Below, one piece after another: positions 1,597-41,681 of a DNA stretch of 46,627 bases. Position numbers and translations under genes: made by a program. The stretch comes from Myxococcales bacterium. GTDB taxonomy: Bacteria; Myxococcota_A; Polyangia; Palsa-1104. The notes beneath the pieces were generated by a model. That model was given only the letters and a program-made list of their open reading frames with translations, ran no database searches and was not told where the DNA came from. Each line of letters opens with the position of its first letter. The stretch's first letter is position 1. Where the stretch lies: NCBI GenBank assembly GCA_003153195.1, contig PLXG01000087.1, positions 520 to 47,146 on the forward strand. The letters run 5' to 3'.

Positions 1597-4143
1597 GTGC
1601 TGTCGGTTCGGTGGGCGGTTCTCGCTTTATGCATAAGCGGGAGCGCGCGCGCGCAGTCGGGTGGATTCATTGCGCCTAAGCTCAAAACCAAAGTAGAGGC
1701 GAAGTATCCGACGGCTGCCATGGCGGAAGGACTTTCCGGTGAAGTGGGGCTGGAGTTCGACGTCGACGAAGACGGACGGGTTGCCAACGTCGTCGTAAAA
1801 ACATCGGCGGGACATGGTTTCGACGAGGCTGCGACCGCCGCGGCGAAGCAGTTCATCTTTGAGCCAGGCACACACGAAGGCGCGCCGGTGTCGGTGCATA
1901 TCAGCTACTCCTATCGATTCACGCTCAAAGAGGTGCCCAAGCCGGTGGTCGATCGAAAGGTCGTCCAGGTGGGTCGCTTGGAAGGGTTCACGCTCCTCCG
2001 CGGGACGCGAGAGCCGATCGCCGGCGCGCACGTAATCGCGGTCGATGAAAGTGGCGTCTCCCATGACGTGGCGGTCGACGCGCGCGGACATTTTCTGCTG
2101 GCGGTTCCGGCTGGCAAGGCACACGTGGTGGTGAGCGGTGGCCGCGCCAAACGCTTCTCCACCGACGAGCAGATTCGTGCCGGCGAGTCGCTCAAGGTGA
2201 ACTACTTCATCGAGCCGACTCAGTACGGACGCTACGAGTCGACGGTGCGCGGGCAAATCAATCGCGAGGAGATCTCGCGCAAGACCTTCAGCACCGAAGA
2301 GCTGATGAAGATGCCGGGATCGTTCGGCGATGCGTTGCGCGCCATCGAGAATTTTCCTGGCGTGGCGCGGGCACCGTTCAACTCGGGGTTGATCATCGTT
2401 CGCGGCGGCAAGCCCACCGACAGCCGCGTGTTCATGGGCGGCGCGGAGGTGCCGCAGCTTTATCACTTCGCTGGGCTCACCTCGGTGGTGCCCACCGCGC
2501 TCATCGATCACATCGACTTCATGCCGGGAAATTTCAGCGTGCGTTACGGCCGCGCCATCGCCGGCGCGATCGATCTCGAGCTGCGCGAGCCCAAACGAGA
2601 TCGCTGGCACGGCGAGCTCGAGACCAACGTCTTCGACACCGGCTTCATGGTGGAAGGGCCGGTGGGCCAGGGCTCGCTGGCATTCGGCGCGCGACGCAGT
2701 TACATCGATGCGCTCATCGGGCTTCTTCCGGCCAGCGCGCTCAAGTTCGCCACCGCGCCGGTCTACTACGACTATCAAGCGGTGTTCGACTATCCGCTGT
2801 GGGGCGGAAAAATTCGCGTGTCGGTGCTCGGATCCGACGACGAGCTCAAGTTGGTGATCACCAAGCCGAACGACATCGATCCGTCGTTCACCGATTTCGG
2901 AACGCACATCTACTATCACAAGGCGCAGATTCGTTACACCAAGCGATTCGGCAATTGGCAATTCTTGGCGCAGAACGCGAGTGGTGTCACCAGCCAGAGC
3001 GGAGCGCTTGGCACCGCGCTCAACTACAATGTGTTTTCGGTGAACAGTGATTTCCGCGTCGAGGCGCGCTATCAAAAGTCGCCCAAGTGGAAGTTGCTGA
3101 TCGGACTCGACACGCAATATGCGCACGTCGATTTGGGCGCACTTTTGCCGTCGCCCCCGCGCGAAGGCGAAGTGCCCACGCCGCTGTCTCTGGCGACCAA
3201 ACAGCGCGTGGACGAAATCCTCGACGTGGGAAACATTGGCGCCTACGCCGAGCTGACCTGGAAGCCGAACGAGCGAATCACTGTTACGCCCGGGCTGCGA
3301 TTCGACTATTTCTCTGCGCTGCAGCACACGGCGTTCAATCCGCGAATGACCGCGCAGTTTCGTGTTTCACCCATCACCTGGATCAAAGCTGGGCTCGGCC
3401 TCTACTCGCAAGATCCGCAGCCACCCGACTACGATCCGCACTACGGAAATCCAAATGTTCGTCCGGAGTCGGCGATCCACTCGTCGCTCGGCGTCGAGCA
3501 GGGAATTCTGCCGGGCCTCTCGCTGGAGGTGACCGGCTTTTACAAATATCTCTACGATCTGGTCGCGCCCTCGACGCAATCCGTGCTGCGCAACGACGCA
3601 ACCGTTCCAGAAAATGTGGCGTCGACGGGAATTGGGCGGATTTACGGCGGAGAGTTCTCGTTGCGCCAAGCGATCTCGAAGCGCTTCTTCGGGATGCTCA
3701 GCTACACGGTCATGCGCTCGGAGCGCAAAGATTGCTCCGCCTGCGCCTGGCGACTGTTCGACTACGATCAGACGCATGTGTTCGTGGCGGTGCTGCACGC
3801 CTATCTGCCGCGCGGATGGGAAGCCGGTTTTCGATTTCGCTACGTGACGGGATTTCCTTACACTGCGGCGGCAGGCGGATTCTACGACGCCGACTCGGAT
3901 GTCTTTTCGCCGGCGCACGGGCCGGTCAATACGGCGCGCCTCGACTCTTATCAATCGCTCGATTTGCGCGTCGACAAGACCTTTTTGTTCAAACGCTGGT
4001 TGCTCAAGCTCTATCTCGATGTGTCGAACGTCTACAATCACGCCAATCCGGAGATCACGCAGTTCAGCTACGACTACACCAAGAATCAGGCGGTGACGGG
4101 GTTGCCGATCATCCCGTCATTCGGAATTCGCGGCGAGTTCTAG
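1597..4143 (+). CDS. TonB-dependent receptor with an N-terminal TonB C-terminal-like domain
   Basis: 848 aa, GTG start, chosen because it gives a signal peptide (MLSVRWAVLALCISGSARA, cleaved before QSGG). Residues ~25-110 match the TonB C-terminal (energy-transducer) fold: AKYPTAAMAEGLSGEVGLEF, then DEDGRVANVVV, then a GFDEAATAA / FEPGTHEGAPV stretch. Residues ~125-215 look like a carboxypeptidase regulatory-like beta domain. A plug follows (~230-335, with IIVRGGKPTDSRVFMGGAEV and YGRAIAGAIDLE), then an outer-membrane barrel to the C-terminal Phe. The ligand is unknown; siderophore, metal chelate or glycan uptake is possible. The N-terminal domain normally belongs to the TonB protein itself, so its fusion to the receptor is unusual. 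No exbB, exbD or tonB gene is adjacent. Confidence 0.85.
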   Translation: MLSVRWAVLALCISGSARAQSGGFIAPKLKTKVEAKYPTAAMAEGLSGEVGLEFDVDEDGRVANVVVKTSAGHGFDEAATAAAKQFIFEPGTHEGAPVSVHISYSYRFTLKEVPKPVVDRKVVQVGRLEGFTLLRGTREPIAGAHVIAVDESGVSHDVAVDARGHFLLAVPAGKAHVVVSGGRAKRFSTDEQIRAGESLKVNYFIEPTQYGRYESTVRGQINREEISRKTFSTEELMKMPGSFGDALRAIENFPGVARAPFNSGLIIVRGGKPTDSRVFMGGAEVPQLYHFAGLTSVVPTALIDHIDFMPGNFSVRYGRAIAGAIDLELREPKRDRWHGELETNVFDTGFMVEGPVGQGSLAFGARRSYIDALIGLLPASALKFATAPVYYDYQAVFDYPLWGGKIRVSVLGSDDELKLVITKPNDIDPSFTDFGTHIYYHKAQIRYTKRFGNWQFLAQNASGVTSQSGALGTALNYNVFSVNSDFRVEARYQKSPKWKLLIGLDTQYAHVDLGALLPSPPREGEVPTPLSLATKQRVDEILDVGNIGAYAELTWKPNERITVTPGLRFDYFSALQHTAFNPRMTAQFRVSPITWIKAGLGLYSQDPQPPDYDPHYGNPNVRPESAIHSSLGVEQGILPGLSLEVTGFYKYLYDLVAPSTQSVLRNDATVPENVASTGIGRIYGGEFSLRQAISKRFFGMLSYTVMRSERKDCSACAWRLFDYDQTHVFVAVLHAYLPRGWEAGFRFRYVTGFPYTAAAGGFYDADSDVFSPAHGPVNTARLDSYQSLDLRVDKTFLFKRWLLKLYLDVSNVYNHANPEITQFSYDYTKNQAVTGLPIIPSFGIRGEF

Positions 4144-6197: not shown

Positions 6198-7163
6198 CTA
6201 GAAAAAATCGACCCCAATTCCCGCTTCCAGGTTGAACCACCCCGGCGGCGTCGAGATCGTCACTTGAGATCCCGTCACGTGGATGTGGTCGGTAATGAAC
6301 ATGGCTGACACGGACGGCATCACAAAGAGCGAGAAGCGTTTCGCGAAAACCCACTGACCGCGAACCGCGAGCCAGGCGGCGGGCTCGAGATAAAGGCTCG
6401 AATCGTTTTGCGTGTAGCCGCTGGTGCGCGCGCGTAAAATTTCCAGAGAAATTCCCGCGAGAATCGCCACTCCACTTTTTCCATAGGACGTGATCGACAC
6501 CTGCGCGAAGCCGGTCACCGGGATGCGCCGAATCGCGATGGTACCGCCACCGCCCGCCTGTGAATATTCGCTCGAGACTCCCGCTGAGACGCCGATTCCT
6601 GCGTGATTGCCAAAGCCAACGACCACGGTCGCGCTTCCCTGGCCGACGACGGAGGGAGCTTCGTGAAGTGCCACCGCGGCACCTCCCGACAGCCACCCCG
6701 ATAAGTGCGGCGCTCGTCGCGGACCCTGTGCGGTAGCAGACCGTGGCGTCGAAGCGACGGGTGTCGGGACAGGTTGAACCGGCGGAATGGGCGCCGCGGG
6801 GGGAACCAGTTTGGGCACATTCGGTTCGAGCGATGGCAGCTCTCGAATCCAGCTGTCGACGACGAACGCCAGCGTGTCCGCAATGTGCTCGCAGTCAGAC
6901 GACCGGATCGGAAACGCCCGTTGAAATTCTCCACGAACCGGATCAGAGAGTGTGAGCACAAGTGGCTGGTTCGGTTTTCGTTCGACTTTCAGTCGAAGGC
7001 TTGGCTCATCCTCGGCGAAGATCTCGGCGCCAAATCGTCTCTGTATGGCGGTCCGGAATTGGGACTCGGAAGGACACGGCGCGTCCTCCATCTCGAGCCT
7101 GAGGGTGAACCCGAACGACGCTGCCGGCCACCCCAAGGACAGCAGAATGAGCAGTGTCCTCAC
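6198..7163 (-). CDS. Module A: secreted two-cysteine domain plus outer-membrane beta-barrel-like protein
   Basis: 321 aa, GTG start, with signal peptide MRTLLILLSLGWPAASFG. An N-terminal periplasmic domain (~20-110) carries two cysteines, in APCPSESQF and SSDCEHIADTLAFVVD. Proline-rich residues ~118-140 form a linker. The remainder is Gly-rich alternating beta structure ending in Phe (GVDFF), typical of an outer-membrane barrel. The same plan recurs at 29952-30896 and 34793-35803, each next to a sigma/anti-sigma pair and a large lipoprotein. Here it is divergent from the lipoprotein gene across 86 bp. It belongs to no family I recognise. A role as surface partner or channel for the lipoprotein is inference. 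Confidence 0.75.
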   Translation of the reverse strand: MRTLLILLSLGWPAASFGFTLRLEMEDAPCPSESQFRTAIQRRFGAEIFAEDEPSLRLKVERKPNQPLVLTLSDPVRGEFQRAFPIRSSDCEHIADTLAFVVDSWIRELPSLEPNVPKLVPPAAPIPPVQPVPTPVASTPRSATAQGPRRAPHLSGWLSGGAAVALHEAPSVVGQGSATVVVGFGNHAGIGVSAGVSSEYSQAGGGGTIAIRRIPVTGFAQVSITSYGKSGVAILAGISLEILRARTSGYTQNDSSLYLEPAAWLAVRGQWVFAKRFSLFVMPSVSAMFITDHIHVTGSQVTISTPPGWFNLEAGIGVDFF

Positions 7164-7249: not shown

Positions 7250-9664
7250 ATGGAAGTATCCAAGATGAGAGCCTCAGTCCTCCGTGCATACGCCGCCCTG
7301 ATCCTATCTGCGCCAACGGTGGGCTGCGTACGAAATGATTCGCTCGGCCATCAAGCGGATATGTCCATCCTCGGTACGACCAGCGGTGACATGACGCCGG
7401 ATTACTCTGGTCTGGACGTCGAGCCGAGTGCGCTGCAGACCATTTCGGTGGCGGCCGGATCGACCCTGCCGACCGTGGGGCCGTACACCGCGACTCTACT
7501 GGGAACGTCGATTGCTGTGCGCTGGAGTGTCGATCGAGGCGACATCGGATCGATCGATATCGGCGAGACCGCGACCGCAAACTTTACGCCGCGCGGAACC
7601 ACCGGCGGATTGGTGACCATCCTCGCCGCTCTCGGCAGCACGACCATCAAACGGCAGGTAATGGTGAAGCTGACGACTGCACCGCAAAATGGATACGTGA
7701 GCAACACCGCCGAGCAAGCGCAAGTTCCGTCTAGCGCGGCCGCGCTCGCGCAAGGTGGCGGCGTGGGCGGCGTAGGCGGTGAAGGGCTTGGCGTCGCCGT
7801 CACCGATGGGAGCACCCTCACTGCGCTCGGAGCTCCTGCGGAAAACGGCAGCGCACAGCATCTGACGTTCCTCTATCCTTACGATAAGACCGTCTGGCCG
7901 CGCGGCATGCTCGCACCGCTTCTGATGTGGAAATGGGATAGCGGTGATGCGGACGCGATCAAGATCGATCTGTCGACCAGCAGTGGCTCGTTCACCTGGT
8001 CGGGAACCTTTGGACGTCCTGCGATCTTGCAAACGACGGGTGGAAGTTTTATCCGCCATCCCATTCCGCAAGATGTGTGGGACATGGCGACCAACTCCGC
8101 CGGTGGAACGACACCCGACGGCAAGCCCGACAAGCTCAGCCTCAAGCTTACCATCGCCAAGTCAGGTCAAGCCTACGGCCCAGTGGCAGAAACCTGGGCC
8201 GTGGCTCCTGCGCGCCTCACCGGCTCTGTCTACTACAGCGCCTATGGTTCGGGAACCGTGCGCAACGGTCTCGACAAAGATACCGCGGGCAACTGGGTGG
8301 GGGCGGCGATCCTCGGCATTCGATCGGGTGCCACCGCGCCCAAGGTCATTGTCGGACAAGATACTCCCGGGGCGGAGAGCGGATGCGTGGACTGTCACGT
8401 CGTGGCTGCGCGCGGCCGCTGGCTGATCGCACAACAGACCGGTGCGGAACAGGGCAGCGATCTGCAGAGCTTCGCCTATGATCTCCAAGCCGCGGATATC
8501 CAAGGATCTCGGCACGCACTGCCGCCAGACGGAACGTTTGCCTGGGCGGCAATGCTCAAGGATGCTTCGTACGTGCTCACCAACACCGTCGAGCCCGCCA
8601 ATACCGCCATTCTGACCGCCACCACCAGCTCGTTTTGGAGTTTTGGATCGAGCGCGGGTCCTCAGGCGGCAACGGCGAGCGGCCTGCCGAGCTCGATTTC
8701 GGCGGGCTACCCCATCTTCTCTCCCGACGATCGCTTTGTTGCCTACATCGATGCGACCGGAAACCCGAACGTCGGCGGTGGCCCGCTGACGGTGGGAAAT
8801 TTCGACGAGAGTTCGAGAACGTTCTCCAACCTACAAGCAATTCATTCCGCGCCGATGGGCGACAAGATCGGATATCCCGCGTTTCTTCCCGACGACAGCG
8901 GAATCGTGTTCGAGACCGGACTTCGTGCCAGCCAGTGCGATCCACAGATGGTCACCCGCTGCGGCGCTCGTGGTGAGTTGTGGTGGATCAACATGAGCGG
9001 TACGCCGACCGCGGTGACGCTCGATGCGCTCAACGGAAAGAGCGGTAACGCCGTCTACCTCCCGCTCGGGCCGAACAATCATGGCACCGGCGCGACGTCC
9101 GAATCTCCCACCAGCTCGTATAGTGAATCTGGCCTCGATGACACGACGCTCAACTATGAGCCCACGGTTCTGCCGATCGTGGCGGGCGGTTATGCTTGGG
9201 TGGTGTTTACCAGTCGTCGGCTCTACGGCAATCAAGCAACCGCGCTGCCGTGGAAAGGAAGTGATCCAACGCAGTACGACACCACCAGCTTTACTCAAGT
9301 ACCGACGAAAAAACTTTGGGTGGCCGCCATCAATCTCGGCGCTGCGCCGGGCTCCGATCCGAGCTCACCGGCTTTTTATCTGCCGGCGCAAGAGCTCATG
9401 GCGGGCAACTCGCGCGGCTACTGGGTTTTGGATCCGTGTCAGGGCGACGGCAATCGCTGCGACACGGGCGATCAGTGTTGCGGCGGATGTTGTCAGCCAA
9501 ATGGCACCGGCGGTGCGCTCATCTGTCAGAGTCCGCCACCCGACGGGCACTGCTCCTCGGTTGCGAACTGTTCCGGCGTTCAGGAACAATGTACGACGTC
9601 GGCGGACTGCTGTGATTCCTCGAATGTCTGTGCCGGTGGATTCTGTGCATACGTCATTGAGTAG
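7250..9664 (+). CDS. Module A: large CXXCH lipoprotein with Ig-like, propeller and 14-cysteine tail
   Basis: 804 aa. The signal peptide ends in a weak lipobox (APTVGC). Domains in order: the conserved box DYSGLDVEPSALQT (~residues 46-60); an Ig-like beta domain with RWSVDRGDIGSID and later TTIKRQVMVKL (~60-145); a Gly-rich linker; a beta-rich region; one c-type heme motif CVDCH at 379-383 followed by VAARGRWLIAQ; and TolB/PD40-type repeats (FSPDDRFVAYID, FLPDDSGIVFET). The tail from Cys730 to the C-terminus has 14 cysteines (DPC, QCC, GCC, DCC and others), knottin- or Dickkopf-like. It has close paralogues at 26100-28559 and 31065-33434. Probably surface-exposed and disulfide-stabilised. Function unknown; electron transfer, redox sensing or ligand binding are possible. 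It is followed 23 bp later by the sigma gene. Confidence 0.85.
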   Translation: MEVSKMRASVLRAYAALILSAPTVGCVRNDSLGHQADMSILGTTSGDMTPDYSGLDVEPSALQTISVAAGSTLPTVGPYTATLLGTSIAVRWSVDRGDIGSIDIGETATANFTPRGTTGGLVTILAALGSTTIKRQVMVKLTTAPQNGYVSNTAEQAQVPSSAAALAQGGGVGGVGGEGLGVAVTDGSTLTALGAPAENGSAQHLTFLYPYDKTVWPRGMLAPLLMWKWDSGDADAIKIDLSTSSGSFTWSGTFGRPAILQTTGGSFIRHPIPQDVWDMATNSAGGTTPDGKPDKLSLKLTIAKSGQAYGPVAETWAVAPARLTGSVYYSAYGSGTVRNGLDKDTAGNWVGAAILGIRSGATAPKVIVGQDTPGAESGCVDCHVVAARGRWLIAQQTGAEQGSDLQSFAYDLQAADIQGSRHALPPDGTFAWAAMLKDASYVLTNTVEPANTAILTATTSSFWSFGSSAGPQAATASGLPSSISAGYPIFSPDDRFVAYIDATGNPNVGGGPLTVGNFDESSRTFSNLQAIHSAPMGDKIGYPAFLPDDSGIVFETGLRASQCDPQMVTRCGARGELWWINMSGTPTAVTLDALNGKSGNAVYLPLGPNNHGTGATSESPTSSYSESGLDDTTLNYEPTVLPIVAGGYAWVVFTSRRLYGNQATALPWKGSDPTQYDTTSFTQVPTKKLWVAAINLGAAPGSDPSSPAFYLPAQELMAGNSRGYWVLDPCQGDGNRCDTGDQCCGGCCQPNGTGGALICQSPPPDGHCSSVANCSGVQEQCTTSADCCDSSNVCAGGFCAYVIE

Positions 9665-9687: not shown

Positions 9688-10284
9688 ATGGTTTGCCTGG
9701 ACCGATGGGAAGTGGAGACCGTATTCGACATGCTGCCGTCGCCGGAAAGCCGCGAATCGTTGATGGTGGCCTCCGAGCCGACTTCGCTCGATCTGCGCCG
9801 GCTCTATGATGAGTATCGAGATCTGGTGCGCCGCGCCGTGATCCGTTTGGGCGGCCCGAGACAGGACGCCGAGGATCTGATCCACGAGGTTTTCGTGATC
9901 GCTGCCGCTCGACTCGGCACCTTTCGCGGAGAGAGTCAGCCTTCGACCTGGCTCTACGGCATCTGTGTAAAGGTGGTTTGTCATGCGCGACGCAAAGAGC
10001 GTTGGCTCGGACTCTTTCAGCGCGGCGAGACGCCCGAGCTGCCTACCTATGATTCGCCGCATCGCCATTTCGAGCAGCGTGAAGCGGCGGAGATCTGCTA
10101 TCGAATCCTGAATCAGCTCTCCGAAAAGAAACGTACGGTATTCGTTTTATTTGAGCTCGAACAGCTCACGGGTGAAGAGATCGCCATCGCGCTCGACTGT
10201 CCGCTCAAGACGGTGTGGACGCGACTGCATCACGCCCGAAAGGAATTCGTCCAACACCTCGAACGAAGCGGAGTGCGATCGTGA
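9688..10284 (+). CDS. Module A: ECF-type RNA polymerase sigma factor
   Basis: 198 aa. Region sigma-2 is at ~35-100 (YDEYRDLVRRAVIRLGG, AEDLIHEVFVIAA, TWLYGICVKVV). Region sigma-4 is at ~125-190 (LNQLSEKKRTVFVLFELEQL, GEEIAIALDCPLKTVWTRLH, ARKEF). There is no sigma-1 or sigma-3, as expected for ECF factors. The ATG 9688 start is tentative; the Met residues at 15 and 26 are closer to the conserved domain. The stop overlaps the GTG of the FecR-TPR gene (GTGA), which implies translational coupling with its regulator. It probably directs transcription of module A genes (inference). The paralogues in modules B and C are shorter at the N-terminus. Confidence 0.9.
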   Translation: MVCLDRWEVETVFDMLPSPESRESLMVASEPTSLDLRRLYDEYRDLVRRAVIRLGGPRQDAEDLIHEVFVIAAARLGTFRGESQPSTWLYGICVKVVCHARRKERWLGLFQRGETPELPTYDSPHRHFEQREAAEICYRILNQLSEKKRTVFVLFELEQLTGEEIAIALDCPLKTVWTRLHHARKEFVQHLERSGVRS

Positions 10285-11435
10285 ACGAACTTCCCTCTAA
10301 TGCGGCCGAGCTGGTGGCGAATGCGCGCAAGGTCACCGAGCCCACCACCGCCGAGGACGCGCGCCTTTGGCAACGACTTTCACGTGGCGGGGCGAAGCGA
10401 TCGCGATCGCGCTGGCGAACGCGGGCGTGGATCGGAGGCGCTCTCACGGCAGCCAGCGCGCTCACCTGTTTGGTGCTCGTCTGGCGAAATCGCGTCGACC
10501 GAAACGTGGGAATGTTGTCGATCGAGCTCGGTGAAATCGGGCGCATCGAAGTATCGCGAGGAGCGAGCTATCGAATCCCGAGAGACGAACGCACGGGGGA
10601 GATTCAGCCGAAGCTCTTTTTAAATTCCGGCGAGGTGGTGGCGTTGATTCTACCTCGTTCGTCAAAGGATCCATTCGCGGTGGAGACTCCTGCCTTACGG
10701 GTGACCGTGATGGGGACCAAGTTCATGGTCCAAGCCGACCGAGATTTCTCCCGGGTGGTCGTCGAAGATGGGCGAGTGCTGGTCGAGGGAAAGGCGGGCG
10801 GAACCGTGCTCATTTCCACTGGCCAAGCGATCGATTCGAACGACGCACGGTTGTCTTCGCCGCCTCCTGCGAATCTCGCTCCGCCGGCGGTGCGAGAAAA
10901 TGTCAAAGAGGTGACCGTCAAACGACCGCTCGCGGCGGCGAGTACACTCGGAGCGGAGAACGAGCTCTATCGCGAGGCGATTGCCGCGCGGGATCAGGGA
11001 AACTCCGCTCGCGCGCTTTCGCTGTTTCGCACCTACGAGAGAACGTTTCCCAGTGGAGTTCTTCGGGTCGATGCGTCGCGGGCCATCCTGGAGCTGCTGA
11101 TGGCCGACAAACATTTAAGCGAAGCGGTCACCCGCGCTCGGCTGCATCTGTCCCGATATTCGGACGATCCGCGGAGAGCCGAGATCTCGTTGGCGCTCGG
11201 TCAGCTCGAACGTAGTGAGCGACATGATCTGAAAGCGGCGCTGCGCGCGTTTCAGCTGGCGCTCGATTCCGCTCCTTCGCGGCGTGTCACCGACGAAGTC
11301 CTGTTCCAAAAAGGGACCTGCGAGCAGGCTTTGGGTCTGAGCTCCAAGGCCACTTGGCAGCGCTATCGAGCTGAGTTTCCTCAGGGGATTCACGTCAGCG
11401 AAGTAGAAGCGCTCTGGCGTTCGGGCAAATATTAA
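10281..11435 (+). CDS. Module A: FecR-domain, TPR-containing anti-sigma regulator
   Basis: 384 aa from GTG 10281, chosen for the GTGA overlap with the sigma stop. Residues 1-47 are cytoplasmic and Arg-rich near the membrane. One transmembrane helix spans ~49-69 ([19 protein letters not shown]). A periplasmic FecR-type domain spans ~77-190 ([43 protein letters not shown]). TPR-like helices fill ~225-384 ([15 protein letters not shown] and repeats). FecR proteins hold or activate their ECF partner in response to an outer-membrane signal, which fits this operon. Modules B and C have shorter partners lacking the FecR domain but keeping the TPR-like end. The stop overlaps the convergent pgi stop by 4 bp. 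Confidence 0.85.
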
Positions 11436-19047: not shown

Positions 19048-20481
19048 CTACGGCGCGCGTCGCCACTTCTTGAACGCCAGCTTAGTGAGTCGAGCCGACC
19101 AGCTGGCCAGCTCGCCGGCGCCGAGATTGCGAAACACCTGCTGGTAAATGTCGCCGTGTCGCGCGGCGGTGCGGCGCATGAAGGTGATGAACTCGGTGAA
19201 GCCGATCTCATCGCGAATGAATGCAGCGAAGCTGTCTTCGCCCATCTCGCTCAAGGTCGAAAACGCGACGTCGAGAAGCCGGTTGATCTCATTTGAGTCG
19301 TCGCCGGCGCGGTTCAGCATCATGAGGGTGAGCCCGCCCATCACGCCGAGGCCGGCTGGCTCGCTCCACACCGACGCCAAAGATCGGCGGGCGAGCGTAT
19401 TTTTTTTCAATCGATCGTGCAGCGCTTCGCTCACCGGCAGAAACGACCGGATCATCGAGCCGAAGCCGCAAAAGGTGAGCGGCGAATGGCGGCCGGCGGC
19501 GTCGCCGACCAGCACCACGCGATCGCAAGGTGAAGCGGTCATCGGCCGAAGCCGCGAGTACGCCGGGATGAAGCCGTAGGTGGGTTTGATCAGACGGGCG
19601 TCGCCCTCTTTGTAGCGGGCGCGAGTGGTGAAGAATCGTTCGTACAGCGACATCAGCGGTCTCGGGCCGAGCTGGTCCGGCTCACAATAATAAAAGAGAT
19701 AGGCAGTGAACCCACCCGGGCGGGGAAATCCTTCCCAGATATGCTGGCGACCTTCTTCGACGTCTTCGGTGGTCACCAGGATTTCGCCCACGCTCGAATC
19801 GACCGCCAGCGGATCGTCGCCCTCGCGTAATCCTTTCAGCACGCCACCCACCGTCGGGCAGGAGAGATCGAACGCCGCGTGGGGTGAGGCAGCGCCCATC
19901 GCATCGATGAGCAGGCGCGCGGTGAAGGTGCGCTCTCCCGCGCGCACTTCGATTGCGCTCTTTCCGATTCGATACGAATTCAGTGGATGATGATCGAGCA
20001 AGGTCGCATTCGCGGACTCAGCGAGCGTGCGCAATTTTGTGAGCAGCGTCTCGGCATCGACGACGCAGTCGAGCACGTGGCGCACCGGATAGGTTCCGCC
20101 GCCATGCCAGCGAACGATCCCGCGCGCGTACTCCTGCTCGACGAGCGCGTCCACTTCGTTCGGCAAGAACAGTCCCGACCGAGCCAGTGGTTCGAGCTCG
20201 GCGCGGCTGATGTTCCATTCGCGATGGCCGCAGCCGATCTTGCGACGATCGAAGATGACCACCTTGAGGCCGCGTCGCGCCAAGATCGCGCCGTAGAGAA
20301 GGGATAGTCCGCCGCCAGCGATGGCGACGTCAAAGTCGGGACGCGCAGGATCTCCGGCCGCGCCGAGCTGCTGGTCATTTCGAAGCGGGCGCCGCTCGAC
20401 GTACGTTCGTTCCAGCTCTTCGATGTGCGCGAGCGCGTCGGGAAAGTCGCGCAGCGCGTTTTCAGTGCGCGGAAATCTCAC
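19048..20481 (-). CDS. cruA: CruA-type lycopene cyclase (FAD-dependent)
   Basis: 477 aa from GTG 20481, chosen because it overlaps the crtB stop (GTGA); longer readings run antisense through crtB. The Rossmann FAD site is FDVAIAGGGLSLLYGAILARRG at about residues 50-71. Next comes GCGHREWNISRAELEPL, resembling the EWNISR signature of CruA/CruP proteins of green sulfur bacteria and cyanobacteria. A second FAD motif is VVLVGDAAGRHSPLTFCGFG. CruA converts lycopene to gamma- or beta-carotene. It is distinct from the CrtY and CrtYcd cyclases usual in Proteobacteria and described in Myxococcus. Assignment rests on motif recall and position between carotenoid genes; another FAD-dependent carotenoid-modifying enzyme is possible. 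Confidence 0.75.
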   Translation of the reverse strand: MRFPRTENALRDFPDALAHIEELERTYVERRPLRNDQQLGAAGDPARPDFDVAIAGGGLSLLYGAILARRGLKVVIFDRRKIGCGHREWNISRAELEPLARSGLFLPNEVDALVEQEYARGIVRWHGGGTYPVRHVLDCVVDAETLLTKLRTLAESANATLLDHHPLNSYRIGKSAIEVRAGERTFTARLLIDAMGAASPHAAFDLSCPTVGGVLKGLREGDDPLAVDSSVGEILVTTEDVEEGRQHIWEGFPRPGGFTAYLFYYCEPDQLGPRPLMSLYERFFTTRARYKEGDARLIKPTYGFIPAYSRLRPMTASPCDRVVLVGDAAGRHSPLTFCGFGSMIRSFLPVSEALHDRLKKNTLARRSLASVWSEPAGLGVMGGLTLMMLNRAGDDSNEINRLLDVAFSTLSEMGEDSFAAFIRDEIGFTEFITFMRRTAARHGDIYQQVFRNLGAGELASWSARLTKLAFKKWRRAP

Positions 20482-21431
20482 GCTGGCAGGCCCACCGATC
20501 GAAGCAGAGGCGCAAGCGAGCTGTCGGCGGGACCGGCCGTGTCTGGCCGTTTGGTGGAGAATACCGCGGGCAGCGCGCGGCCCACCAGCACCAACTTTCC
20601 GCTCAGCGATACATAGGCGCGCGACCTCACTGAGTCGTGATCGTTTTTCGCGATCGCGCGTCCGATCGCCGAATAAATCTGCCGGCTGGAGGCGATGGCC
20701 AAGCGACAGGAGCGCGGCAACATCGGAATTCCGCCATCGGCCGCCCGATAGTGCGCGTCGGCGCGCGCCAGCAGCTGTTTGACCGCAGCTTTGGTGGGTG
20801 CGGTGGCCGCGCGTGCGTTGAGCAGCGTCGCTTTTTGCAATCCCACCGATTCGCAAAGCGTGCGCGGCAGATAGACTCGTCCGCGTGCCGCGTCTTCGCC
20901 GATGTCGCGCGCAATGTTGGTGAGCTGCATGGCGATGCCCAGATCAGCGGCGCGATAGTAGGCGCGATCGTCGGCTACTCCCATGACCTTGGTCATCATC
21001 AACCCGACGGTGGCGGCCACGCGAAAGCAATAGAGGAACAGATCGTCGTCAGTTTCGTAAACCTGATCGCGCGCGTCCATTTCCATTCCGTCGAGTAGTG
21101 CCGCCGGCAGCGCTTCGGGAATCGCATGCGCCTCGACCACTTTGGAAAATGCGCGATCAATTGGATGGTCGTCGGCGACTCCGCGGTAAACGCGCGTGAG
21201 ACGAAGACGTAGCTGCGCGACCTGTTCAAGTCCGTGGGTTCGCGTCTCGTCGACTGCGTCGTCGGCACGCCGGCAAAACGCGTAGAGTGCCCAAGCGGCC
21301 TGGCGAACTCGCGCGGGCAGAAGGAGCGAGGAGAGAAAGAAACTTTTGGAATGTTTCTGGATCCAAGCGCGGCAGGCCAGGCGATCTTCGCGCGCCAAGA
21401 TCAATACAGAAGTGGTGCTCGCGTCGCTCAT
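20478..21431 (-). CDS. crtB: Phytoene synthase
   Basis: 317 aa. Squalene/phytoene synthase fold: SKSFFLSSLLLPARVRQAAW, then the first Asp-rich motif CRRADDAVDE, YCFRVAATVGLMM, and the second motif NIARDIGEDAARGRVYLP. It joins two geranylgeranyl diphosphates into 15-cis-phytoene. The ATG overlaps the crtI stop (ATGA) and its stop overlaps the cyclase start, giving a tightly coupled crtI-crtB-cruA operon. The extra ~20 residues before the synthase core look unstructured. Confidence 0.92.
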   Translation of the reverse strand: MSDASTTSVLILAREDRLACRAWIQKHSKSFFLSSLLLPARVRQAAWALYAFCRRADDAVDETRTHGLEQVAQLRLRLTRVYRGVADDHPIDRAFSKVVEAHAIPEALPAALLDGMEMDARDQVYETDDDLFLYCFRVAATVGLMMTKVMGVADDRAYYRAADLGIAMQLTNIARDIGEDAARGRVYLPRTLCESVGLQKATLLNARAATAPTKAAVKQLLARADAHYRAADGGIPMLPRSCRLAIASSRQIYSAIGRAIAKNDHDSVRSRAYVSLSGKLVLVGRALPAVFSTKRPDTAGPADSSLAPLLRSVGLPA

Positions 21432-22978
21432 GCGTTGGCGTGGGTGCCGGCGATCGGATCGCGCGGATTGCCGGTCCCGGCGCGGTCGGCGATCAATCGG
21501 TCGACCACTTTTGCCGACGACAGGACGCCCGGCATTCCCGCACCTGGATGGGTTCCGGCGCCGACGATGTAGAGACCGTCGACGTCTTCCGATTTATTGT
21601 GAAAACGGAAGTAGGCCGATTGCGAGAGCGTCGGCTGTAGCGAGAATGCCGCGCCGTTGACCGAGCTGAGCTCATCGCGAAAAGTCTGCGGCGTGATGAA
21701 TCGACTGGTCACCAGATTTTCGCGCAGTCCGGGAATCACGGTGGCGTCGAGATATTCGAAGATGCGATCGCGATAGATCTCGCCTTGCGCTTCCCAGTCG
21801 GTGCCCGACTGCAGATGTGGAACGGGCGAGAGCACGTAGAAGGCTTCGCAACCGGCCGGCGCGATGCTGGCGTCGGTGCGGGTGGGGGCGTGCAAGTAGA
21901 GGCTGAAGTCGTCGGATAGAATTTTTTTCTCGAAGATGTCGTGCAAGAGCGGCTTGTACCTGGGCCCGAGCAGGATCGAATGGTGCGCTAACTCGGGATA
22001 GATCTTCTTGGTGCCGAAGTAGGCCACGAACAGGCTCATCGAGTAGCGCTGCTTGTCGACGCGCGCGTCGGTCCATTTGCTGCGCGCGCTCTCGGCGATA
22101 AGGTGCTTATAGGTGGCCGGTGCATCCGCGTTGGAGATGACGATCTCGGCGGGCAGGGTGGCTCCGCCCTTCAATCGAACGCCGGTTACCTTGGCGCGGC
22201 GCGCGCTTTTTTCGGTGAGAATCTCTTCGACTTCGCTCGAGCAGCGCAAGCTTCCGCCGAGCGAGACGAACAGCTCGACCAAGGCCTGCACGATCGCGCC
22301 GGTGCCGCCGCGCGCGTACCAAACGCCCCATTTGCGCTCGAGAAAGGCGATCAGCGAATAGATCGACGTGGTGGTGAACGGATTGCCGCCCACCAGCAGT
22401 GGATGAAACGACATGACCGTTCGCACCGACTCGTCGCGAATGTACTTGGAGACCAGCGCGTGCACCGACAGATGAGACTTGAGACGAATCATCTGCGGCA
22501 GGATTCTGACCATGTCGCTGAAATGCAAAAACGGAACGTCGGCGAGATCCTCGAACCCGACTTTGAAGATCTTTTCGGCTTCGGTGACGAATCGCGCATA
22601 GCCGTCAACGTCGCGCGGCTCAAACTTTCGCACCTCCTCGGCCATTCGATCGGCGTCGCCGGTGTAGTCGAACACCCGCCCGTCGTGAAAGCGCACGCGA
22701 TAAAATGGATCGACCGGCAGCAGCTCGACCGCCTCGTCCATGCGTCGTCCGGCGAGTGCGAACAGCTCTTCGAGCAGGATGGGCGCGGTGACCACGGTGG
22801 GTCCGCCATCGAAGGTGAAGCCGTCATCGCGATAGACGTAGGCCCGCCCGCCCGGCTGATCGCGCTTCTCCAGCAGCGTGACGTCGAAGCCGCGCGCGGC
22901 CAGGCGAATGGCGGCACCGAGCCCGCCAAACCCTGCGCCGATCACCACCACCTTCGGTTTCACCGGCGAAAGATGCAT
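21428..22978 (-). CDS. crtI: Phytoene desaturase (CrtI family)
   Basis: 516 aa. The FAD-binding N-terminus is VVVIGAGFGGLGAAIRLAARG, followed by LLEKRDQPGGRAYVY and FTFDGGPTVVTAP. The C-terminus has GLYIVGAGTHPGAGMPGVLSSA, the CrtI C-terminal signature. Members introduce 3-4 double bonds into phytoene to give neurosporene or lycopene; the cyclase downstream argues for lycopene. First gene of the crtI-crtB-cruA operon. A second possible start (GTG, six codons in) lies closer to the Rossmann strand. No clear Shine-Dalgarno precedes the ATG. Confidence 0.9.
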   Translation of the reverse strand: MHLSPVKPKVVVIGAGFGGLGAAIRLAARGFDVTLLEKRDQPGGRAYVYRDDGFTFDGGPTVVTAPILLEELFALAGRRMDEAVELLPVDPFYRVRFHDGRVFDYTGDADRMAEEVRKFEPRDVDGYARFVTEAEKIFKVGFEDLADVPFLHFSDMVRILPQMIRLKSHLSVHALVSKYIRDESVRTVMSFHPLLVGGNPFTTTSIYSLIAFLERKWGVWYARGGTGAIVQALVELFVSLGGSLRCSSEVEEILTEKSARRAKVTGVRLKGGATLPAEIVISNADAPATYKHLIAESARSKWTDARVDKQRYSMSLFVAYFGTKKIYPELAHHSILLGPRYKPLLHDIFEKKILSDDFSLYLHAPTRTDASIAPAGCEAFYVLSPVPHLQSGTDWEAQGEIYRDRIFEYLDATVIPGLRENLVTSRFITPQTFRDELSSVNGAAFSLQPTLSQSAYFRFHNKSEDVDGLYIVGAGTHPGAGMPGVLSSAKVVDRLIADRAGTGNPRDPIAGTHANA

Positions 22979-23140
22979 TAATGATAGAGATCCCGGCTAG
23001 AGAAATCGGAGGTCCCTCTCCAGGGGTAAGACCGCCTGATTTTGTTTGGGAATTTGATGTAAGCGCGCACTTTGTAGTGTTACGATTTGCGCGGTTAGGT
23101 CGAAAATCACATGTCTTTCAGTAACTTAAATAGGTAGAGA
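22979..23140. promoter_or_regulatory. Divergent control region between crtI operon and P450, with operator-like palindrome
   Basis: This 162 bp gap must promote both the crt operon (minus) and the P450 (plus). An operator-like interrupted palindrome is centred near 23073: gtaa 23059-23062 with ttac 23080-23083, enclosing cact 23068-23071, loop ttgt, and agtg 23076-23079. Also cgcgca 23064-23069 pairs with tgcgcg 23088-23093. The binding factor is unknown; a light- or redox-responsive regulator would fit carotenoid genes (inference). Confidence 0.4.
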
Positions 23141-24454
23141 GTGATCCCAGGGCCTTCCATCGTTTGGGCGCCGCTTGGCGCGATGCAGCTGCTCCGCGAT
23201 CCGCGTGTGTTCATCCGCGAGAACGCGGCCCGCTATGGCGACGTATGGCGCAGTCGAATTCCCGCCATCGGTCCAGGCAAGCGGTTGCGCGATCTGGTCT
23301 GGCTCATGGGACCCGAAGGTGCCGAGCGAATTTTGGCGCCGCAACATCGCGACGACTTCTCCTGGTACGGTGGCTACGGCTTCACCATGGAGCCGACTTT
23401 CGGCCGCGACATTCTCTTTCTGAGCGACGACACGCCCGGCTGCCCAGCGCACAAAGAGCGGCACCGCACGCTCAGCCCCGCCTTTCACCCGCGCACCGAT
23501 GGCGACTACCTTCCCGTAATCGAGTCGGTCGTAAAGTCGCACACGCGCAATTGGCGTCCAGGCACCCGAATCGATCTCCAGTGGGAGCTCAAGCGAATTG
23601 CCTTTCACGTGGTCGCCGCGCTGCTGCTCGGCGCAGAGGAGCGCGATCTCGACCAGCTCATGCACCTGTTCGAAGATCTTGGCGACGGTCTCTACTCGAT
23701 CTTGCGCGTGCGCCTGCCGGGTTTCGACTTCTATCGAGGACAGCGCGCTCGCGAAAAGCTGGCCGCCTATCTGCGCGAGAAGATCGCTGGGTACCGCTGC
23801 GCGCCCGAGCTGCCGCGCAACATGATTGGCTATCTCATGCGCTTCGGCGCCGAAGACGAGCGCGCGCTCTCCGACGAGACGTTGGTGGCCGAGATGCTGG
23901 CATTTCTCTTCGCCGGCTACGACACCACCGCCAGCATGCTCACCTCGTTCTTTGCGGCGGTGATTCCCCGCGCCGAAATTGTGCGAATCCTTCGCCAGGA
24001 AGCGAGCGAGCTGCGCTTCTCCGAGCTGCAATCGCAGCCGATGTTGGAAGCGACCCTGCTCGAGACCGAGCGACTCTTCCCGCCGCTCGTCTTCAGCATG
24101 CGTGGCGTGGAGCGCGACATTACGTTTCGGAATTTCACCATTGCCGCCGGTAGTCGCGTGGCCTATAGCGCTTGGCAGATAGGTCGCATGCCTTCGCTGT
24201 TCGAGCGCGCCGGCGAATTTTTGCCCGAGCGATTTTTCGACGACAAAAAAGCGCCGCCCTACAGCATTCTGGGATTTGGCGGCGGACCTCGCACCTGCAT
24301 CGGCAAACGATTTGCGTCGCTGGAGATGCGACTGGTGATCGCGCTACTCTTCAGATCGTTTTCATTTGGCCCGCAGTTCAACGCCGACGATGAGATGTTC
24401 TTCAATCCCACCATGCAGCGGCGACAGGGTCTGCGCATCGAGATCCGCGCATAA
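23141..24454 (+). CDS. Cytochrome P450, probable carotenoid-modifying
   Basis: 437 aa, GTG start preceded by aggtagagag. The P450 hallmarks are present: I-helix AGYDTTASMLTSFF, K-helix ETERLFPPL (ExxR), and heme-binding FGGGPRTCIGKRFA with Cys386 as the thiolate ligand. There is no N-terminal membrane anchor, so it is a soluble or peripheral enzyme; no ferredoxin or reductase is adjacent. Its divergent position next to crtI suggests ring hydroxylation or ketolation of the cyclic carotenoid, as described for Thermus CYP175A1, but the substrate is an inference from context. Confidence 0.9.
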   Translation: MIPGPSIVWAPLGAMQLLRDPRVFIRENAARYGDVWRSRIPAIGPGKRLRDLVWLMGPEGAERILAPQHRDDFSWYGGYGFTMEPTFGRDILFLSDDTPGCPAHKERHRTLSPAFHPRTDGDYLPVIESVVKSHTRNWRPGTRIDLQWELKRIAFHVVAALLLGAEERDLDQLMHLFEDLGDGLYSILRVRLPGFDFYRGQRAREKLAAYLREKIAGYRCAPELPRNMIGYLMRFGAEDERALSDETLVAEMLAFLFAGYDTTASMLTSFFAAVIPRAEIVRILRQEASELRFSELQSQPMLEATLLETERLFPPLVFSMRGVERDITFRNFTIAAGSRVAYSAWQIGRMPSLFERAGEFLPERFFDDKKAPPYSILGFGGGPRTCIGKRFASLEMRLVIALLFRSFSFGPQFNADDEMFFNPTMQRRQGLRIEIRA

Positions 24455-26099: not shown

Positions 26100-28559
26100 T
26101 CAATTGATCGTTTGAGCGCAGAAGCCGTTCACGCAGGTGTTCGACGGTTCGCAACAGTCGGCCGATGTCACACATTTCTCCTGTGCCTGCGAGCAGTTCG
26201 CCACAGCTGAGCAGTGTCCGTCGGGAGGCGGACTCTGACAGATGAGCGCACCGCCCGCGCCGTTTGGCTGACAACATCCGCCGCAGCACTGATCGCCGGT
26301 GTCGCAGGAATTGCCGTCCGATTGGCAGGGATCGAGCGCCCAAAATCCACGCGAATTTCCCGTCAGAATTTCCTGCGCCGGCAAGTAGAACGCCGGGAAG
26401 CTGGGGTCGGCGTCGGCCGATCCGCCCAAGCTCACCGCTGCCACCCACAACTTCTTGGTGGTGGCCTTCGATAGATCGGTGATGTCGTAGCGCTGCGGAT
26501 CGCTCTGCCACGGTGTGGCGGTGAGTTGGTTCCCGTACGCCCGACGACTGGTGAAGACGATCCAGGCGTAGCCGCCGGAGACGATCGGCAAAATGGTGGG
26601 CTCATAGTTGAGCGTCGTATCGTCCCAGCCGGCTTCGTTGTATTGCGTGCCCTCATATCCTCCGTCGCCGGTCCGCACGATCCCATGGTCGTTGCCGCTG
26701 ACCGGAAGGTATGAACTGGATCCATTTTTGCCGTTGAGCGCGTCGAGCTGAACCGCTGTCGGGCTCGCTCCACCGAGCTTGAGCCACGAAATCTCGCCGC
26801 GCGTGCCCTGTCGCGTCGTCATGACGATGTCTCGATTGCTGTCGCGCAGCTGAGTCTCGAAAACGATGCCGCTGTTGTCGGGCAGGAAAACGGGAAATCC
26901 GATTCGTTGTCCGATTCCTGGCGACAGCAGCGCCTGAAAGTTCGAGAACTGAGGGCTGGGAGTCGCGACGTAGTGGCCGACCATGAGCGGTCCCTGAAGA
27001 TTGTTAGTTTTTCCCGACACGTCGACGTAAGCGATCAAACTGTCGTCGGGAGAGAACGAAGGATGGGCCACACCCACGCCGCCCGGAAAGCCGGAATTGG
27101 TGATCATTTGGGGATTCAAAGCGAACTGCCAGAAGGCGCTCACCGCCGAGCCGGATCCAGCATTGGTCGGATCCGAGGGATTGTCCGAGTCGAGCTCCAC
27201 GGCGTTGCCGACGGCGTAAGAACCATCGCTCACCATTCCGGCCCAGGCGAATGTTCCGTCAGGTGTGAGTTGCTTTTCGGAAGACATCACGTTCGAGACC
27301 TTCAAATCGTATGCGTAGCTGTAGTTGGGATTGCCGCCACTGATCGATCCGTTCGATTTGTCGTACTCGGCCTGTACGATGAGTCGCTGCCCGCGCGAGG
27401 CCACCACGTGACAGGTGCGACATCCCTTGTCGCTGGTGGGGTGACCGTTCACGTCGAGATCACTGTCCGCACCGACGACCAGCGTAGGCTTGGTTTGGCC
27501 CGAGCGAATGCCGAGAACCGCTGCGCCGAAGTAATGTCCGGCGGTATCCGGTGTGACGAAATTCTTTACGAGCTGCGTGCCGTAGGAGTTGTAATAGACG
27601 GTGCCGGTCAGGCGGGCCGGTGCGACGGTCCAGGTTTCGGTGAGCGGTCCATAAGCTTGGCCGGCTCTCGCCAGGGTGAGCTTGACGGTGAGCTTGTCGA
27701 TTGTTCCGTCGGGAGTGGGACCGCCGGAAGAGTTGGTCGCCGCTTCCCACACATCCTGCGGGATTGGATGGCGAATGAACTTTCCGCTGGTCTGCGCCAA
27801 GATCGCGGGTCTGCCAAACGTGCCCGACCAAGTGAACGAGCCCGAGGTGGTCGACAGATCGATCTTGATGGCATCGGCGTCGCCGGTGTCCCAATTCCAC
27901 ATCAGGAGCGGGGCGATCATGCCGCGCGGCCAAGCGGTTTTGTCGTATGGATAGAGAAACGAAAGATGGAGTGAGGCGCCATCTCCGGTCGGACTTTCGA
28001 GGGCGGTCATCACGCTCGGATCGGAAACTGCGATGCCTAGTCCCTCGCCGCCGACACCGCCGACGCCACCGAGTCCGTCACCTTTGCTCAGTCCGTCGAC
28101 ATTGGCAGGAACCTGCGGCTGCTCGGATGCGACGCTGGTATCGACTCCGTTTTGCGGACCGGCGGTGATCTTGACCATCACTTGGCGTTTGATGGTGGCG
28201 CCGCCGATCGATGCGATCACGGTCACCAGGCCACCCACCTTTCCGTTGGCGGTGAATGTCGCCGATGAAACCTGGCCGGAATCGATGGTCCCGATGTCGC
28301 CGCGGTCGACCGTCCAGCGCACCAAGATGGGCGTGCCCAGCAGCGTGGCCATGAAGGCCTGCGATGTTTGCGCCGGATAGTTGAGGGTTTGCAGATCGCT
28401 CGGCTCGACGTCGAGACCGCTGTAGTCCATGGCCATGTCGCCAGTGTCGATCCCCACCTGCGCCATGTCCGGCAACGAATTCTGACGACCGGCCGAGAAG
28501 GGCTCGTGGCATCCGCTGAGCATCAACATCATCAGTACGCGTCCGACCCTTGTTCTCAT
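26100..28559 (-). CDS. Module B: large CXXCH lipoprotein with Ig-like, propeller and 14-cysteine tail
   Basis: 819 aa, ATG preceded by agggggac. The signal peptide MRTRVGRVLMMLMLSGC has lipobox LSGC. It has the same architecture as the module A protein: DYSGLDVEPSDLQT box; Ig-like domain (VRWTVDRGDIGTIDSG, TIKRQVMVKI); Gly-rich linker (GDGLGGVGGVGGEGLG); c-type heme motif CRTCH at 380-384 followed by VASRGQRLIVQ; PD40-type repeats (FSPDDSLIAYVD, FLPDNSGIVFET); and a tail of 14 cysteines spaced as in A, ending GFCAQTIN. Last gene of the barrel-sigma-partner-lipoprotein operon, 30 bp after the TPR partner. Convergent with the PIG-L gene. Confidence 0.85.
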   Translation of the reverse strand: MRTRVGRVLMMLMLSGCHEPFSAGRQNSLPDMAQVGIDTGDMAMDYSGLDVEPSDLQTLNYPAQTSQAFMATLLGTPILVRWTVDRGDIGTIDSGQVSSATFTANGKVGGLVTVIASIGGATIKRQVMVKITAGPQNGVDTSVASEQPQVPANVDGLSKGDGLGGVGGVGGEGLGIAVSDPSVMTALESPTGDGASLHLSFLYPYDKTAWPRGMIAPLLMWNWDTGDADAIKIDLSTTSGSFTWSGTFGRPAILAQTSGKFIRHPIPQDVWEAATNSSGGPTPDGTIDKLTVKLTLARAGQAYGPLTETWTVAPARLTGTVYYNSYGTQLVKNFVTPDTAGHYFGAAVLGIRSGQTKPTLVVGADSDLDVNGHPTSDKGCRTCHVVASRGQRLIVQAEYDKSNGSISGGNPNYSYAYDLKVSNVMSSEKQLTPDGTFAWAGMVSDGSYAVGNAVELDSDNPSDPTNAGSGSAVSAFWQFALNPQMITNSGFPGGVGVAHPSFSPDDSLIAYVDVSGKTNNLQGPLMVGHYVATPSPQFSNFQALLSPGIGQRIGFPVFLPDNSGIVFETQLRDSNRDIVMTTRQGTRGEISWLKLGGASPTAVQLDALNGKNGSSSYLPVSGNDHGIVRTGDGGYEGTQYNEAGWDDTTLNYEPTILPIVSGGYAWIVFTSRRAYGNQLTATPWQSDPQRYDITDLSKATTKKLWVAAVSLGGSADADPSFPAFYLPAQEILTGNSRGFWALDPCQSDGNSCDTGDQCCGGCCQPNGAGGALICQSPPPDGHCSAVANCSQAQEKCVTSADCCEPSNTCVNGFCAQTIN

Positions 28560-28589: not shown

Positions 28590-29315
28590 TTAGTGTGAAA
28601 ACTGTTGTTGTGCCTGTCGGGCGGTTTCGCGAAAACGTCCGTGCGGATAGCGATCGAGATATCGCTTGGCCAAGATCAGCGCTCTCTCATCGTGTTTCAC
28701 CACTGCCGTTTCGATCTGCAGCGAGAGCGCCTCTTCCAACAGCGCACCCTTCGGATAGCGACGCAGATACTCGGCGAGGAGTGCGTTCGAACGAACCGGA
28801 TCGTGGTCATGGCGCAGTGCTTTCATCGCCGCCAGCACACCCGCCATCTCCTCGGGATTGATCGCTTTGGCCTTTGCCGTCGGTTTGCTCGCATGGATCT
28901 TCGGGCGAATGGTCGGAGCAACTCCTGTCGACTGCTTTGCTTCGACCGGCGATTCGGCCTCGGCCTCGACCATGGCCCCGGCATGAGCGGCCACTTCATT
29001 GTCGGACAACTTGGGCGCGGGCGCGCTCGGCGCGGGTGTCGTCACCTTTGCGGCTGGCGCGACCGTCTTGGGCGAATGGAGGTATCGCCCAATCATCGCC
29101 GACGCAAATCCCACCGAGGCGATGATTCCGACCGTGGCGAATACCAGGCGGAGCCGAGCGCGAGGGACAGCCCGCGCGCCCTTCGAGTCGCTCGCCGAAA
29201 GAATCGCCTGCCGTCGTTCATTCGACGGACTCCGAGCCGGTGCTCGACGCAGAAGTTTGGCCAGCTCGTCCCCGGATTCTTCGCTCTTTGGCTCGTCATC
29301 GCGTAGCGGTCGCAT
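28590..29315 (-). CDS. Module B: one-TM TPR-like partner, putative anti-sigma factor
   Basis: 241 aa. A cytoplasmic N-terminus of ~55 residues is followed by a transmembrane helix at ~57-77 (LVFATVGIIASVGFASAMIG). A Pro/Ala-rich periplasmic linker follows (~80-150). The C-terminal ~85-residue TPR-like segment contains MKALRHDHDP, LLAEYLRRYPKGALLEEAL and YLDRYPHGRFR. It has no zinc-binding HXXXCXXC motif and no FecR domain. The ATG overlaps the sigma stop by one base (TGATG), the usual arrangement of a sigma factor and its regulator, so anti-sigma function is inferred from position and topology. The closest relative is the module C protein. Confidence 0.7.
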   Translation of the reverse strand: MRPLRDDEPKSEESGDELAKLLRRAPARSPSNERRQAILSASDSKGARAVPRARLRLVFATVGIIASVGFASAMIGRYLHSPKTVAPAAKVTTPAPSAPAPKLSDNEVAAHAGAMVEAEAESPVEAKQSTGVAPTIRPKIHASKPTAKAKAINPEEMAGVLAAMKALRHDHDPVRSNALLAEYLRRYPKGALLEEALSLQIETAVVKHDERALILAKRYLDRYPHGRFRETARQAQQQFSH

Positions 29316-29917
29316 CAGATCTTCCCCGCATTTCGAAATAGGAGGAGGCGCTCGGTCAACTCGGCCCGCGCGTGACGAATCCGCGACCAGACGGTGGCGA
29401 GCGGAATTTCTTCCAGCGCGGCGATCTCTTCGCCGGAATATCCTTCCAGCTCGAACAGCACGAAGGCCACGCGCTTTTTGGGATTCACGCCTTCGAGCAG
29501 ATGGCGCACCAATCGACTGGCGTCCTTTTCGTCGAGAAGCTCGTAGGGTGTGCGCCGCATGTCTTCGATCTGCTCGAGCTCGACATTGCGCGGTCGCAGA
29601 AAAAATTTACGAAACCAGGCGCGCCGGCGGTGATCGCTGGCGGTGTTCTGGGTGATCTTGTAAAGCCAGCCGAACAAATTCTGTCCGTCGAACTTGGGCA
29701 GATCGCGTCGGACCACCACGAAGATTTCTTGGGCCAGATCTTCTGCTTCCGACTCAGGAATGCCGAGCGCGAACAGCCAGCGCGTGACTTCGCGAAACCA
29801 TTTCTGGTATAGCGTAGAAAATTCTCGTTCGTCGGTATCTGCCACGTCGGCTCTGTCCACGGACTCAAAGGGGCGCGCCTCCGCGTCAATCCATTGAATC
29901 TCTGCTCCCGCTGGCAT
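29315..29917 (-). CDS. Module B: ECF-type RNA polymerase sigma factor
   Basis: 200 aa. Sigma-2 is at ~33-95 (LYQKWFREVTRWLFALGIP, AEDLAQEIFVVVRRDLPKF, FGWLYKITQNTASDHRRR). Sigma-4 is at ~135-190 (KRVAFVLFELEGYSGEEIAAL, PLATVWSRIRHARAEL). It is clearly paralogous to the module C factor (same APDHRRR-like helix and GYxxEEIAxLE) and more distant from module A. Its stop overlaps the start of the one-TM partner. It probably controls its own operon (inference). Confidence 0.9.
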   Translation of the reverse strand: MPAGAEIQWIDAEARPFESVDRADVADTDEREFSTLYQKWFREVTRWLFALGIPESEAEDLAQEIFVVVRRDLPKFDGQNLFGWLYKITQNTASDHRRRAWFRKFFLRPRNVELEQIEDMRRTPYELLDEKDASRLVRHLLEGVNPKKRVAFVLFELEGYSGEEIAALEEIPLATVWSRIRHARAELTERLLLFRNAGKI

Positions 29918-35803: not shown

Positions 35804-35922
35804 GCCATCAAACCACGGGCGGCCAACCGTCACAACATCGCGAGACGAACTTGCCAGATTTCGGTAGAGCTTGTGTGGAAAATATGTAAATTGTCCGCAG
35901 TTCTCGGAGGGAAGACAGCACG

Positions 35923-37851
<1,929 letters not shown>

Positions 37852-41671: not shown

Positions 41672-41681
41672 CGCTTAACGC

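Follow-up and report, generated by a model that had tools for sequence, protein, structure and literature searches.

Putative monoheme lipoproteins and their association with sigma/regulator/barrel cassettes in a myxobacterial genome bin

Lipoprotein genes and their neighbours

The window, by which we mean the whole stretch of 46,627 nucleotides analysed, carries three paralogous lipoprotein genes. An earlier note, made from the sequence alone, had placed three such open reading frames here, and translation confirmed their positions. Every one of the three adjoins genes for an ECF sigma factor, a single-TM, TPR-like regulator and an outer-membrane barrel protein predicted to have eight strands, a cassette absent from that note's account. 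The features are as follows.

6198-7163, - strand (divergent): barrel protein of cassette 1; N-terminal domain and predicted outer-membrane beta-barrel (HMM, alignment, fold of a homologue)
7250-9664, + strand: lipoprotein copy 1, 804 aa; signal/lipobox followed by an Ig-like domain, a propeller (CVDCH at residue 379) and a 14-Cys tail
8384-8398, + strand: codons of CVDCH, residues 379-383, at the start of the first PD40 repeat
9437-9646, + strand: 14-Cys tail (residues 730-799), made of two tandem C-C-CC-C-C units and the extra pair C747/C768
9688-10284, + strand: ECF sigma factor of cassette 1 (Sigma70_r2 47.1 bits, Sigma70_r4_2 51.8 bits)
10215-11435, + strand: probable membrane anti-sigma of cassette 1; N-terminal region, TM, FecR domain (PF04773, 44.6 bits), TPR/YbgF-like C-terminus
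26100-28559, - strand: lipoprotein copy 2, 819 aa; CRTCH at residue ~380, 14-Cys tail
28590-29315, - strand: probable membrane anti-sigma of cassette 2; TM and TPR-like, no FecR domain, no Pfam match
29315-29917, - strand: ECF sigma factor of cassette 2 (Pfam profile)
29952-30896, - strand: barrel protein of cassette 2 (HMM, alignment)
31065-33434, - strand: lipoprotein copy 3, 789 aa counted from ATG; CRVCH at residue ~373, 14-Cys tail
33479-34186, - strand: probable membrane anti-sigma of cassette 3; TM and TPR-like, no FecR domain
34183-34758, - strand: ECF sigma factor of cassette 3; overlaps the regulator gene by 4 bases
34793-35929, - strand: barrel protein of cassette 3; N-domain joined by a Pro-rich linker to eight long strands (AlphaFold2; Foldseek NspA/OmpA/OmpX)

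Pairwise identity among the three lipoproteins is about 60% (60-61% between copy 1 and copies 2 and 3). The copy number of three holds for the window but not for the genome, a draft metagenome bin of 5.56 Mb in 511 contigs and 72% complete, which has about 12 copies; two of these, L050 and L051, appear to be damaged or to result from incomplete assembly. Other Polyangia (Myxococcota) also have relatives, among them Sorangium cellulosum and a Byssovorax bin. One relative genome (G024; L063-L066 and L071-L075) holds at least nine free-standing members of the family, two of them with CX3CH.

Lipoboxes, read by eye on the translations, are TVGC in copy 1 (imperfect at -3), LSGC in copy 2 and LVGC in copy 3. 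The proteins have the signal peptide and lipobox cysteine of bacterial lipoproteins, and the cysteine (column 26) is present in all 33 rows of the alignment that reach that column. They are exported proteins, probably of the outer membrane, that would be exposed at the cell surface. Searches of Pfam, NCBIfam and PDB sequences assigned the window lipoproteins to no family.

The CXXCH site, the propeller and the cysteine tail

There is a single CXXCH in each window protein (CVDCH, CRTCH and CRVCH), and its location at residue ~373-380 in all three paralogues, as claimed earlier, was borne out by translations and alignment. None of the 37 aligned homologues lacks either cysteine or the histidine; 35 have them as CXXCH and two (L071 and L074) as CX3CH. 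The invariance of C379, C382 and H383, where most other positions vary, indicates conservation beyond chance. The genome also encodes cytochrome c assembly proteins (PF01578, three matches over cut-off). The earlier claim of one conserved heme site is thus well supported by motif invariance, export and maturation genes as far as a c-type site is concerned, and we infer that the lipoprotein is covalently loaded with heme. With a CXXCH conserved in homologues and maturation proteins in the genome, it would count as a monoheme c-type cytochrome in the broad sense. The class I cytochrome c fold (PF00034) had no match in the window proteins and reached E 0.043, below cut-off, in one relative.

The motif might instead hold no heme, its cysteines forming a structural or redox disulfide, or a metal site with the histidine, that braces the first propeller repeat. 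The CX3CH of two relatives fits such a role, as does the placement of the motif within a repeat whose blade could be braced by a disulfide, and in hydrazine synthase alpha the CXXCH histidine binds zinc even though the site carries heme (PMC12607021). The histidine, however, is as invariant as both cysteines, and a disulfide alone needs no histidine; the protein is, moreover, exported in an organism with cytochrome c assembly genes. We therefore regard a heme-free site as unlikely.

No suitable histidine or methionine column besides H383 was found in the 37-protein alignment that could supply a conserved sixth heme ligand; the only other His/Met-rich column, 706 (78%), is serine in the window protein. 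Tyrosines 209, 328, 329 and 659 are invariant. Given the lack of a conserved sixth ligand, plain electron transfer is somewhat less likely than ligand binding or chemistry of the peroxidase type. The redox or ligand-binding function suggested previously is plausible with a shift of emphasis: the heme would most likely bind a small ligand or an oxidant, for instance peroxide, O2 or NO, and not merely pass electrons.

The CXXCH sits in the first of a series of PD40 repeats and is in register with those that follow; in L055, successive repeats read TCIGCHVVSHDGTTLAVAF, QDSGFMALTPDGSMIAWGQ, GLAVHPDFSPDGTKLVFGL and EANAYPAFSPDANWVVYQS. In the first repeat PxFSPDG is replaced by CHxVSxDG, the CH taking the place of the residues before the SPDG turn. 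Because of this register, the VA(A/S)(R/K)G-R after the motif, which the earlier note had taken as a special signature, is nothing other than the rest of a PD40 repeat. With the Pfam model (PF07676, cut-off 20.9 bits) the three window proteins gave no match, 11.2 bits and no match, respectively, whereas six relatives scored over the cut-off, including L055 (32.3 bits), L069 (31.6), L052 (29.4) and L081 (28.1); the proposed PD40 propeller is thus recognized in relatives and falls below cut-off in the window copies themselves.

With a ten-sequence alignment as input, AlphaFold2 modelled the lipoprotein at modest confidence (pLDDT 59.7, pTM 0.55). The N-domain, which is all beta, is fairly confident (mature residues 31-117, block pLDDT mostly 75-88), the core is beta-rich at middling confidence and the tail region is of low confidence. 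Foldseek matched the model to propeller and Ig-domain proteins with low TM-scores, and the fold is therefore backed only in outline. For the Ig-like domain, the all-beta segment and the Foldseek Ig matches are joined by a sub-threshold Big_2 match in one relative; together they make the domain a candidate rather than an assignment. The predicted architecture would run from an N-terminal Ig-like domain, through a PD40-type propeller with the CXXCH heme site fused onto the SxDG turn of its first repeat, to a tandem cystine-knot-like tail.

Two known groups invite comparison. The lipoprotein shares PxFSPDG-type repeats with PD40/TolB-type beta-propellers, and its sequence profile reached only TolB, weakly (E 0.007), but its first repeat carries a CXXCH and its predicted propeller lies between the Ig-like domain and the tail. 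Like the alpha subunit of hydrazine synthase (PF18582), it would be a beta-propeller protein with a CXXCH heme motif, but its predicted heme site is inside a propeller repeat, whereas the hydrazine synthase heme is in a separate middle domain (PMC12758564). Membership of the hydrazine synthase family was rejected: PF18582 matches none of the lipoproteins and only two other genes in the genome. These lie on contig C509 (15267-15551 and 10209-10469, both - strand, in frames of 788 and 1001 aa) and score over the cut-off, in a myxobacterial bin and hence outside the anammox bacteria. No published description of a c-heme built into a propeller repeat, with PD40 and CXXCH together, was found in the open-licence literature.

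The 14 C-terminal cysteines noted before, in the same order in all three paralogues, were confirmed in an alignment of the tail. In copy 1 they are residues 730, 737, 743, 744, 747, 748, 759, 768, 774, 781, 787, 788, 794 and 799. Twelve of them make up a core of two tandem six-cysteine units in nearly all homologues, each with the C-C-CC-C-C framework of an inhibitor cystine knot and framework VI/VII spacing; L081 has no cysteine tail. C747 and C768 occur jointly in the window copies, L050, L052 and L053, and both are missing in nearly all others, a pattern of joint gain and loss that suggests that they pair with each other. The tandem units, their spacing and the joint loss of the extra pair all argue for a knottin-like tail, in which the remaining disulfides would pair I-IV, II-V and III-VI within each unit, as in a cystine knot. 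Cysteine order and approximate spacing are those of knottins (conotoxin framework VI/VII; Toxin_19 and Dickkopf_N in Pfam), here in two tandem units. In contrast to knottins, the tail is part of a large bacterial lipoprotein, shows no sign of toxicity and stays below the cut-off of Pfam knottin models in window proteins and relatives (Toxin_19, 18.5 against 23.2 bits in L055).

Cassette linkage and exchange of the lipoprotein

One of the three window regulators (10215-11435) has a FecR domain; the other two match no family. The barrel proteins are secreted and about 320-380 aa long; two cysteines lie in the N-domain, which a Pro-rich linker joins to a C-terminal part resembling a barrel. An AlphaFold2 model, at low confidence (46), has eight long strands, and Foldseek matched it to NspA, OmpA, Ail and OmpX with probability 1.00. 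No TonB-receptor match was found in the window barrel proteins.

HMMs built from the window proteins located the same cassette beside L050, L052, L054, L055 and L056, and a more divergent one at L081. Nine of the 11 copies with assessable flanks, window copies included, are linked to a cassette; L049 and L053 have none, and L051 is truncated where its contig ends. Of about 40 region-4 sigma genes in the genome, some 14 belong to such cassettes. The sigma/regulator/barrel cassette itself is common in Polyangia. None was found near the lipoprotein homologues of other genomes, where the free-standing relatives have unrelated, differing neighbours and share none.

This restriction of the linkage to one genome, with relatives elsewhere unlinked, would be expected if the association were an accident of a duplication-prone lineage and had no regulatory meaning, and lipoprotein divergence is indeed incongruent with that of the core (see below). 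Accident is nevertheless improbable in our judgement. On our own estimate that some 5% of genes lie no more than three genes away from one of the ~40 sigma genes, nine of 11 is very unlikely to arise by chance. In the lipoprotein tree the linked copies are also spread over several separate branches, their cores are of two types, and the slot after the regulator is often filled by a lipoprotein in cassettes that carry other genes.

In those other cassettes the slot frequently holds a lipobox gene of another family. Within this genome the alternatives include a small Cys-rich lipoprotein (L080), an FG-GAP-like protein that is rich in cysteine (L077) and a propeller of sialidase-like type (L082), the last two named from our reading of the sequence rather than from a profile match; in other genomes they include the lipoproteins L115, L122 and L132.

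Among nine complete cassettes, the identities of sigma factor, regulator and barrel are strongly correlated (Mantel r 0.81-0.86, p 0.0002 to 0.0004), whereas lipoprotein divergence is uncorrelated with any of them (r -0.06 to 0.06). Copy 1 sits beside a core of the FecR type and copies 2 and 3 do not, despite their 60-61% identity to copy 1, and L055 and L056 have lipoproteins 57% identical beside different cores. Such mismatches, and the several tree branches, imply that the lipoprotein was placed beside these cores repeatedly or was exchanged between cores. At the level of sequence comparison, these data show that the three-gene core diverges as a unit and that the lipoprotein is swapped-in cargo.

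The same data bear on whether the lipoprotein is the sensor of the system, its heme or propeller detecting an extracellular ligand or oxidant and the barrel relaying the signal to the anti-sigma, much as RcsF signals through outer-membrane proteins. Genetic linkage would be the same, and a heme with no fixed sixth ligand suits sensing. A dedicated sensor, however, should co-diverge with the barrel and regulator that it touches, and the Mantel r is about 0; other cassettes, moreover, have unrelated lipoproteins. The absence of co-divergence with the core favours output over a dedicated sensor, a role that we consider doubtful, although a conserved docking surface on the lipoprotein could still permit sensing.

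A proposed signalling scheme

The reading that we prefer, with a probability of roughly 0.55, is that the protein is a surface monoheme c-type lipoprotein and, in this genome, mostly cargo and likely output of a cell-surface-signalling cassette of a non-TonB kind. By analogy with FecA-FecR-FecI and FoxA-FoxR-FoxI (PMC11637429), we propose that contact between the periplasmic N-domain of the barrel and the periplasmic TPR/FecR part of the single-pass anti-sigma would control sigma release. A surface event would free the ECF sigma factor from the anti-sigma, and the freed factor would drive transcription of the cassette, lipoprotein included; the anti-sigma activity, the direction of signalling, the target genes and the regulation are all put forward on this analogy. 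Several results count against this scheme: the lipoprotein stands alone outside this genome, two of three window regulators have no FecR domain, model confidence is modest for the lipoprotein and low for the barrel, the bin is 72% complete, and there is no shared promoter motif. Upstream of 29 barrel genes no shared promoter was found, canonical GGAAC/GTC ECF promoters being absent. A dyad, CGCGC-N16-CGTC, in six of the 29 upstream regions was put down to chance; its positions are scattered and often inside genes, and it occurs throughout the contigs.

The cassette resembles FecI-FecR-FecA type signalling (e.g. FoxI-FoxR-FoxA, PMC11637429) in its ECF sigma factor, its single-pass regulator with a periplasmic part (a FecR domain in cassette 1), its outer-membrane barrel with an N-terminal periplasmic domain and the presence of surface protein genes in the same cluster. 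It differs in that the barrel is predicted to be eight-stranded and of OmpA/OmpX size rather than a TonB-dependent receptor, the regulator has TPR repeats and often no FecR domain, and the cargo is a swappable lipoprotein. The transducer feature of the TonB-dependent kind was looked for and not found, so that the cassette would work like cell-surface signalling but is not a member of that kind.

Known FecR-type cell-surface signalling via ECF sigma factors depends on TonB-dependent receptors. A conserved cassette that uses a small barrel in their place, with interchangeable surface lipoproteins, would, if true, widen this paradigm. It would also offer a testable means by which predatory soil bacteria could adjust the redox or ligand-binding proteins on their surface. 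We found no published description of the cassette in myxobacteria in the open-licence literature. The modular signalling cassette is a stronger finding than the functional guess of the earlier note. More tentatively, and on balance doubtfully, the cassette may be a Polyangia-wide, TonB-independent one, expanded in one genome, whose swappable slot controls many alternative surface lipoproteins (nine of them c-heme propellers), so that the repertoire of surface heme proteins would be changed cue by cue.

Beside another sigma/regulator/barrel cassette, at L084:3859-5706, lies a lipoprotein with a YncE-like propeller and two CXXCH motifs (cytochrome-c-peroxidase-like C-terminus). Elsewhere in the window, one ORF at 1597-4143 (+ strand) has a TonB C-terminal domain (PF03544, residues 35-110) followed by the plug and barrel of a TonB-dependent receptor, an unusual order. 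Adjoining phytoene/squalene synthase, amine-oxidase/desaturase-like flavoprotein and P450 genes at 20478-24454 are possibly a carotenoid cluster, and a tandem pair of diverged HSP70/DnaK-like genes, one of which has DUF3731, occupies 38966-43523 (- strand).
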